From NCBI GenBank assembly GCA_020722345.1, contig DYKZ01000007.1, positions 1 to 39,389 on the forward strand: DNA of 39,389 nt. The letters run 5' to 3'. The notes below the pieces were generated by a model. It was given only the letters and a program-made list of their open reading frames with translations. It was not told the origin of the DNA and searched no databases. Positions 36,707-38,220 of this stretch are shown one piece after another. The position numbers were made by a program, and so were the translations under genes. Position 1 is the first letter of the stretch. Every line of letters begins with the position of its first letter. Origin of the DNA: Anaerolinea thermophila. GTDB lineage: Bacteria; Chloroflexota; Anaerolineae; Anaerolineales; Villigracilaceae.

Positions 36707-36742
36707 AGCGCAGAGACCACCGCAGCGGGTGGTCTCTGTGCT
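36707..36742. terminator. bidirectional terminator between the membrane-protein gene and thyX
   Basis: Fifteen-pair stem AGCGCAGAGACCACC / GGTGGTCTCTGTGCT with one wobble and a six-base loop. On the minus strand it is followed by TTTATTTTGTTT, a strong tail for thyX; on the plus strand the tail is weak. Confidence 0.85.
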
Positions 36743-36757
36743 TGTGGAGGCATTTTC

Positions 36758-38185
36758 CTAGAGATTGCTCTCTTCGACCGCCTGCCATGGCTCGTCCGGC
36801 AGGCGCATGTATTTCGCCAGCAGGGGATGGACACGGCGAATCTCCTCCGCCACACGCTGGGCAGCGCGGCGCATCGAGAAGTGGGCATTGGCCGCCGAGC
36901 GCAGGCGGCAAAAGGCAAACGCCTCGCGTAAATTCATCGTGAACAACACCCGCCGGTTGAAGCCATTGGGGACGATGTAACTCGCCGCTTGCGGATTCCA
37001 CTCTGCCAGTTTTTCATACACTTCGACGGCTTGCTCCATGGCGGCTCGATACTGGACCTCAAAGCCGGCCTCCGCCACCCGGCGCGGCAGAATGTACCCT
37101 AGCCTCGTTGTCAGCGCCTGCGGCGTCTGGGTCATCATGCGGTGGCGCTTGAACTCGGCATAGCCGCCGTTGTCCAGAATCAGGTCGAAAGTGTAGGCAG
37201 TGTGTTCCAGTTCGCGCAGCGGGGCGTCGTGTTCGCCAAGGCGTCCGAGCAGCAATTCTGCCAGCCTTTCCCGTTCCCCTGCTCCCGCTGCCCGGACGGT
37301 CTCCAGCGCCTCGGCGAAGCCCATTCCGCCAAAGCGGAACAGCGCCGCCGCCAGGACCTTCGTCTCGCCATCGGGATCGTAGTCCATCAACCGGCACCAG
37401 TCTTCTGATTTACGATTTACAGTTGGCGGCTGCGCCAGCGTCCTCGAAAGAGATCGGCGATCTTCAAAATCCGCGCGGGTGTCGGTCAGGTAAGGGACGG
37501 CGTCGGCATATTTGACCAGCGTTGGGACTTCGGCCTGCGCCGCGCGTTTCACCTCCTCGCCGATCTGCCGCACTTCGGCCAGCGGGTGCGAGAGCATCTT
37601 ACTGATGGCGTGCTCCAAGACGCGGGCGTTGGCGGTCATGCCCAGGTTGGCCAGCGAAGCAGCCGGGAGCAGGAAGCGGCACGAATCCACGTACTGCGAG
37701 CGGATGCGCCGATCGTAGGCCTCGTCCGTCTCGTTCTCCCGGCGCGGCGACCGTTTCTCGACCAGCGCCCTGACCGGGGCCAGGGACTGCGCGTAGGTCT
37801 CGAAGAGCAGGCCGCAGGTCCGCGTGTAGAGGCCGAGCAGCGGGTGGCCGTCCAGTTCGGGAGGGGTGAAGAAGGCGTCCAGGTCCCATTTCTGGTAACG
37901 GGTGGATTTTTCCGTGTAGGAGGCCAGCCGGTTCGATTCGATGCATTCCACTGCCAGCCGCGAGACGTTCTCAATGGCAATGTGCAGGACGGCGTGCTCG
38001 GCCACCGAGGCGTGCCCGTAGCCGACGACCCATTTCTCGTGGAATTTGGCCGAAGATTCGTCGCTCAACCCGGCGGCGATTTCGCGGAAGGACTCGGGCG
38101 AGCGGGAGGTCTTGGCAAAGGCGACGGCGATGGTTTCGGGGGAGAGTTCTTTGGGGGAGAGGAGATAGATTCGGCGGTCGGACAT
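36758..38185 (-). CDS. thyX: double-domain FAD-dependent thymidylate synthase-like protein
   Basis: Two ThyX domains in one 475-residue chain; ordinary ThyX has about 220-250 and acts as homotetramer, making dTMP from dUMP with FAD. Half one (1-230) has GHASVAEHAVLHIAIENVSR and S84NRLASYTEKSTRY, matching the ThyX motif RHRx7S except that RHR is SNR. Half two (about 240-475) has LEHTAYTFDLILDNGGYAEF and RHR at 347-349 followed by MMTQTPQA, so RHR is kept but the serine is Ala. A complete motif could be formed only by combining the halves. ATG 38185 follows a strong promoter by 6 bases; own terminator. Confidence 0.85.
   Translation of the reverse strand: MSDRRIYLLSPKELSPETIAVAFAKTSRSPESFREIAAGLSDESSAKFHEKWVVGYGHASVAEHAVLHIAIENVSRLAVECIESNRLASYTEKSTRYQKWDLDAFFTPPELDGHPLLGLYTRTCGLLFETYAQSLAPVRALVEKRSPRRENETDEAYDRRIRSQYVDSCRFLLPAASLANLGMTANARVLEHAISKMLSHPLAEVRQIGEEVKRAAQAEVPTLVKYADAVPYLTDTRADFEDRRSLSRTLAQPPTVNRKSEDWCRLMDYDPDGETKVLAAALFRFGGMGFAEALETVRAAGAGERERLAELLLGRLGEHDAPLRELEHTAYTFDLILDNGGYAEFKRHRMMTQTPQALTTRLGYILPRRVAEAGFEVQYRAAMEQAVEVYEKLAEWNPQAASYIVPNGFNRRVLFTMNLREAFAFCRLRSAANAHFSMRRAAQRVAEEIRRVHPLLAKYMRLPDEPWQAVEESNL
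37407..37420. repeat. heptamer repeat GATTTAC x2 inside the thyX reading frame
   Basis: Two perfect tandem copies of GATTTAC, giving the residues VNRKSE in the linker part of half one to half two (PPTVNRKSEDW). Same style as the intergenic heptamer at 16529. Confidence 0.6.
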
Positions 38186-38191
38186 GGGCAA

Positions 38192-38220
38192 ACTATAGAC
38201 GAAAACGCCCCGGCAGTCAA
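38192..38220 (-). promoter_or_regulatory. leaderless promoter of thyX
   Basis: Minus strand: TTGACT (38220-38215), exactly 17 bases, TATAGT (38197-38192), then 6 bases to the ATG at 38185. Confidence 0.75.

Follow-up and report, generated by a model that had tools for sequence, protein, structure and literature searches.

The tandem thyX gene and its surroundings

The window (the whole stretch of 39,389 nucleotides analysed here) belongs to a genome bin of the Chloroflexota whose close named relatives are Anaerolineales. On its minus strand, at 36758..38185, lies a gene for a tandem ThyX protein of 475 aa, in which a first Thy1 domain (D1), a linker and a second Thy1 domain (D2) follow one another in one frame. 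A check of the open reading frame places the ATG at 38185 and the stop codon at 36758-36760. In a Pfam search, Thy1 (PF02511) matches the product over two stretches, with an E-value of 6e-55 for the whole protein and a score of 186.3 bits against a cut-off of 24.8; no other significant domain was found by Pfam. The NCBIfam thyX equivalog TIGR02170, which models single-domain proteins over 211 positions, gives 85.0 bits and falls narrowly below its cut-off of 87.9. The reading frame and the two ThyX-like halves that a sequence-only reading of this DNA had described are thus confirmed.

D1 spans approximately residues 1-245 (37451..38185, minus strand), as delimited by the best Pfam stretch (residues 15-222), the AlphaFold2 (AF2) fold and a residue census. 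Alignment and census locate within it the motif SNRLASYTEKSTRY (residues 84-97, 37895..37936, minus strand), whose Ser94, Arg96 and Tyr97 correspond to Ser105, Arg107 and Tyr108 of Mycobacterium tuberculosis (Mtb) ThyX. SNR stands there in place of RHR, with the third Arg retained, in agreement with the earlier description of a half deprived of RHR that keeps the motif serine and the RY pair. Two further residues are peculiar to D1: Ser60 (38006..38008, minus strand), equivalent to Mtb Ser71, a B-subunit FAD contact, according to structure review and census, and Arg170 (37676..37678, minus strand), equivalent to Mtb Arg172 according to the census. The latter position is that of Thermotoga maritima Arg147, a dUMP ligand.

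The inter-domain linker (approximately residues 246-259, 37409..37450, minus strand) was recognised by alignment and as a block of low pLDDT, and its length differs among aligned tandem homologues. D2 occupies approximately residues 260-475 (36761..37408, minus strand), as judged from the second Thy1 match at 36824-37393 and the AF2 fold. Its RHR (residues 347-349, 37139..37147, minus strand), which alignment and census equate with Mtb Arg95-His96-Arg97, is followed by MMTQTPQALTTRLGY. Counted without gaps, Ala357 falls where the motif serine is expected, as had been noted before; the alignment near the lost motif leaves an ambiguity of two residues, so that the replacement of Ser by Ala depends on the alignment while the loss of S-x-R-Y is robust. 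Structure review and census identify Arg429 (36899..36901, minus strand) as the counterpart of Mtb Arg199 (T. maritima Arg174), a subunit-A dUMP contact.

A promoter-like TTGACT-17-TATAGT, recognised by its match to the consensus, is found at 38192..38220 on the minus strand. Its -10 hexamer ends 7 nt ahead of the ATG, and the mRNA would be leaderless. Past the stop codon, the sequence forms a hairpin resembling a strong intrinsic terminator (36711..36738, minus strand). In view of these two elements, the gene is probably monocistronic. It is preceded by a gene for a creatininase-family protein and followed by genes for an AMMECR1 protein and L,D-transpeptidases, and there are no thymidylate genes among these neighbours. 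The window holds no other thymidylate synthase, as the sequence-only reading had stated; the ThyX and ThyA-family genes present at the level of the bin lie on Pseudomonas-phage contigs, to which we return below.

Active-site residues divided between the two halves

That ThyX active sites are formed between subunits, as assumed from the outset, is borne out by the Mtb structures, where a single site takes RHR (95-97) and Arg199 from subunit A, Ser71 and Arg190 from subunit B, and Arg87, Ser105, Arg107 and the lid Tyr108 from subunit C (PMC6514825). The fate of these residues was followed in 131 distinct tandem proteins from Chloroflexota, Actinomycetota, Bacillota, Bacteroidota and phages, cut at the linker and aligned with 30 canonical ThyX and the Mtb sequence. 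Six residues were taken as diagnostic (95, 96, 199, 105, 107 and 172 in Mtb numbering).

D1 retains Ser105, Arg107 and Arg172 in all 131 proteins, Ser71 in 130 and Tyr108 in 129 (Phe in the other two), and Arg95 in none. D2 retains Arg95, His96 and Arg199 in all 131 and Arg97 in 128, with Ser105 present in two proteins, Arg172 in one and Ser71 in two. The S-x-R-Y/F motif is found in every D1 (131/131), whereas no D2 (0/131) has it at a distance of up to 20 residues from RHR, and RH[RN] occurs in every D2 (131/131), a distribution that chance could hardly produce. The six diagnostic residues are complementary between the halves in 131/131 and gathered in one half in 0/131, so that the single-domain signature is seen nowhere in the sample; all conserved FAD/dUMP residues are nevertheless held within one polypeptide, the A-role residues in D2 and the C-role residues in D1, in each of the 131. 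Arg190 is present in most D1 and most D2 and does not discriminate. Among the 30 canonical ThyX, A- and C-role residues occur in one chain with rare exceptions, and both motifs are found in 29.

The split is identical in a divergent subgroup from other Chloroflexota families and in plasmid and phage proteins. If each of seven A- and C-role residues had an equal chance of surviving in either half, their full separation would have p = 2/128 by a simple reckoning that treats the residues as independent. Both halves are under purifying selection, with omega (dN/dS) mostly 0.04-0.2 between pairs of relatives, and neither half is therefore decaying. The association of one intact with one dead half is ruled out (0/131), and so is a sequencing or annotation artefact, both halves sharing an open frame in 29 relatives and GTDB genomes offering more than 400 candidate loci.

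With all A-role residues in D2 and all C-role residues in D1, the distribution matches what one would see if D2 acted as subunit A and D1 as subunit C of one site. Because a site draws A, B and C from three subunits, a tetramer of two D1 and two D2 permits the second D1 to act as B. The B-role Ser71 offers a further check: its retention in D1 and loss from D2 fit this assignment. On the evidence of the alignments, the composite site proposed for this protein would thus extend to 131/131 tandem proteins, with the two Tyr108-to-Phe changes. The proposal had been of one pseudo-dimer site per pair; its composite nature stands, and a pseudo-tetramer of two chains probably fits better than a pseudo-dimer, since canonical sites use three subunits.

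The protein could also be a thymidylate synthase whose live site is arranged otherwise, either with substitute residues inside D1 or D2 or with D1-D1' or D2-D2' sites, the split motif being unused in trans. D1 does retain some A-role features, namely Arg97 in 116/131 and a Lys at the Arg199 position in 108/131. We consider this arrangement unlikely, as Arg95, His96 and Arg199 are never found together with Ser105, Arg107 and Arg172 in one half, and as it would not explain why the two sets are so strictly kept in opposite halves from one phylum to another.

Predicted structure

An AF2 model built with 69 tandem sequences predicts two ThyX folds, with a mean pLDDT of 85 and a pTM of 0.84. In a Foldseek comparison of single chains, the best PDB matches of the model are 1o26 and other chains of TM0449, the ThyX of T. 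maritima, with a target-normalised TM of about 0.7, as expected of a ThyX fold. Searches of the PDB by sequence and by fold gave no tandem ThyX. By homology to the canonical tetramer, D1 Ser94 and D2 Arg347 would face one pocket.

Genomic exclusion of ThyA and DHFR

A Thy1 gene is present in 32 of 40 relatives; with the genome of the window itself, the matches number 33. None of these 32 relatives has ThyA or a full DHFR, leaving the Thy1 gene as their sole recognisable dTMP synthase. The architecture is tandem in 29 of the 40, and in another three a single half is seen, in two cases at a contig edge. Six relatives have ThyA and a full-length DHFR without Thy1; among the 40, full-length DHFR is found in exactly these six genomes and in no Thy1 genome. 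The last two have neither Thy1 nor ThyA, which genome incompleteness may explain. Such a match between Thy1, ThyA and DHFR would arise by chance once in 2.8 million, a rough guide that ignores ancestry. In a phylum sample of 399 genomes, which takes in single-domain ThyX too, ThyA is present in every one of the 12 genomes that have a full DHFR, and Thy1 is found in none of these 12 and in none of the 16 genomes with a strong ThyA match. Weak partial matches to PF00303 and PF00186, which look like hydroxymethylase-type ThyA relatives and RibD-type reductases, were left out of the ThyA and DHFR counts.

ThyX organisms often lack folA, because ThyX gives back tetrahydrofolate (PMC9931769; PMC1971073). 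The occurrence of Thy1 without ThyA and DHFR in the relatives is the expected signature of ThyX chemistry, and from the exclusion seen in the 40 relatives and in the phylum we conclude that the tandem gene behaves genetically as a ThyX. Thymidine kinase is found in 41/41 genomes and is uninformative as a discriminator; given its universality, salvage to dTMP is possible alongside in principle. As a separate observation, eight genomes of one family (f38) have no ThyX match listed and show only a weak ThyA-like match, in a frame of approximately 490-650 aa (E 1e-16 to 1e-21).

The sequence-only reading had also considered a ThyX paralogue with another role. Such a protein might be a regulatory or nucleotide-modifying flavoprotein, with dTMP supplied by salvage or by an unrecognised synthase. 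The full motif is indeed found in neither half, a thymidine kinase is encoded in every genome searched, and UMP- or dUMP-modifying relatives of ThyX exist, PolB being described as an unusual UMP C-5 methylase (PMC5003785). This role is disfavoured because the tandem gene is the only thymidylate synthase gene in most relatives and is exclusive with ThyA and DHFR. It stands in for that pair genome by genome in the 40 relatives, including a genome of a single contig that has this Thy1 gene only and no ThyA; moreover, the known dUMP-binding residues of ThyX are all kept between the two halves. A paralogue of other function is therefore, in our estimation, decidedly improbable.

The bin itself also holds a canonical ThyX gene and a ThyA-family gene, at three loci on two contigs, C116 (81 kb) and C395 (112 kb). 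Phage genes for a primase, a ligase, a helicase, an exonuclease and a polymerase lie on C395, and phage replication genes are present at both places holding the other ThyX and ThyA-like genes of the bin. Of the 18 kb at the ThyX end of C395, 81% aligns with Pseudomonas phages such as Quinobequin-P09, at approximately 79% identity; the ThyA end matches Pseudomonas phage Psa21-HRN with 96.5% identity. C116 and C395 are Pseudomonas-phage contamination of the host bin, and C395 apparently combines sequence from two distinct phages, of which one brings ThyX and the other a 5-hmdU-type ThyA-family gene. The canonical ThyX and the ThyA were consequently rejected as host enzymes, both having been traced to these contigs, and with the phage contigs set aside the tandem ThyX is the only visible thymidylate synthase of the host. 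A second ThyX or ThyA in the genome had been named in advance as an argument against the composite site; such genes do occur in the bin, but they count against it only nominally because they are phage contamination. That one of them should be the host synthase and the tandem protein a decaying relic has in its favour their mere presence in the bin and is scarcely credible, given their Pseudomonas-phage-like contigs with phage replication genes, their absence from relatives and the purifying selection on the tandem halves in those relatives.

A probable composite thymidylate synthase

The tandem protein is very probably a working flavin-dependent thymidylate synthase made from two fused and complementarily degenerated ThyX domains, which would form a two-chain pseudo-tetramer with two live sites. 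We infer this assembly, the two sites and the activity from sequence and genome context.

Two chains would probably come together as a pseudo-tetramer of two D1 and two D2 with the shape of the canonical homotetramer. At each live site, one D2 would give RHR and Arg429 for the FAD phosphates, the flavin and dUMP, one D1 would give Ser94, Arg96 and Tyr97, together with Arg76 and Arg170, for dUMP and the flavin lid, and the other D1 would give Ser60 and Arg188 for FAD. Live sites would number two, not four; the other two, where D1 would have to provide RHR and D2 the Ser-x-Arg-Tyr residues, would be dead. The chemistry would be that of ordinary ThyX, with the methylene of CH2-H4folate passed to flavin N5 and on to dUMP, and NADPH as reductant. 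Since the product would be H4folate, DHFR would not be needed.

On a broader scale, and with somewhat less assurance, we think it likely that this is a widespread second thymidylate synthase architecture, an obligate pseudo-tetramer whose asymmetry is fixed by fusion and in which two of four sites are live, each made of three domains from two chains. It would be the sole dTMP synthase in much of the Chloroflexota and would have spread to other phyla and to large phages. Its two dead sites could then serve some other purpose, for example regulation.

Relation to known enzymes

Canonical ThyX (PF02511; TM0449 of T. maritima, Mtb ThyX) shares its Thy1 fold with both tandem halves, and its full active-site set equals their pooled residues. 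It is a protein of approximately 220-260 aa with one domain, assembled as a homotetramer with four sites, whereas the tandem proteins, of approximately 475-560 aa, comprise two non-equivalent domains. RHR and S-x-R-Y stand together in the canonical domain and in neither tandem domain. ThyX organisms have neither ThyA nor DHFR, and tandem-bearing genomes are alike in this. ThyA with DHFR (folA) yields the same product and is the alternative in relatives without the tandem gene. The fold of ThyA is unrelated to that of ThyX and the enzyme yields dihydrofolate, hence its requirement for DHFR; apart from the phage contigs of the bin itself, this cycle and the tandem gene are mutually exclusive in all compared genomes.

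Valas and Bourne (2009) reported that Chloroflexi except Dehalococcoides only have a domain-duplicated ThyX, which occurs in a few other species too and in their words 'has not been characterized' (PMC3224940). Their protein has the phylum and architecture of the one in the window, which is one more member of this known, uncharacterised variant. They described no motif loss or partition, and the split-site reading is added here. A literature search, with most subscription journals outside its scope, found neither a characterisation of tandem ThyX nor a mention of a split site. The new element is the strict active-site partition across phyla.

ThyX is an antibacterial target. Its active site, built at subunit interfaces, does not lend itself to dissection, since any mutation in a homotetramer strikes all four sites, and both roles together. 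A tandem enzyme with the roles on separate domains would allow each role to be mutated independently and would give direct experimental access to half-of-sites behaviour and flavin-to-flavin coupling. It would also offer a clean case of complementary degeneration after gene duplication locking the asymmetry of an essential enzyme. As for annotation, checks based on motifs would score either half as dead, and the tandem protein falls just short of the equivalog cut-off.

Distribution and origin of the fusion

The genome collection (GTDB genomes) holds 415 candidate relatives. In the tree, the D2 halves form one clade (support 97/89). The D1 halves nearly do so but require two changes: one divergent subgroup groups with a canonical row on a long branch, a placement that may be false according to the program and is likely a long-branch artefact. 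The simplest account is one ancient duplication and fusion that later spread horizontally, and a single origin is likely rather than proven.

In three other genomes belonging to three genera, a canonical thyX is found in two pieces, with an insert close to RHR. An Rfam search for group I introns and similar RNAs in these interrupted genes gave no match, and an intein, an IS or another type of intron are candidates for the insert.

Tandem ThyX are also encoded on plasmids and megaplasmids of Miltoncostaea, Euzebya, Parabacteroides, Paenibacillus and Bacillus, and in large phages. They are 22-30% identical to the window protein, and those of Tunturiibacter phage Tunturi_5, of Vibrio phages (Yong MS32 and others) and of Bacillus and Paenibacillus plasmids have the same D1-D2 order and the same split; as these genes are on mobile elements, the hosts may own other synthases. 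The plasmid loci include one from a Parabacteroides distasonis plasmid and two from Bacillus plasmids. The Bacillus and Paenibacillus proteins have RHN for RHR in D2, and helicase genes nearby suggest phage-like elements. A tandem ThyX 43% identical to that of the window lies on a contig of 90 kb that is classified as viral (IMGVR_UViG_3300042876_000418), possibly a phage of Chloroflexota. Finally, the 'hypothetical protein' QAX97196.1 of Vibrio phage vB_VmeM-Yong MS32 (1438-2823 of the extracted locus) and its counterparts in three sister phages are divergent tandem ThyX with the same split.
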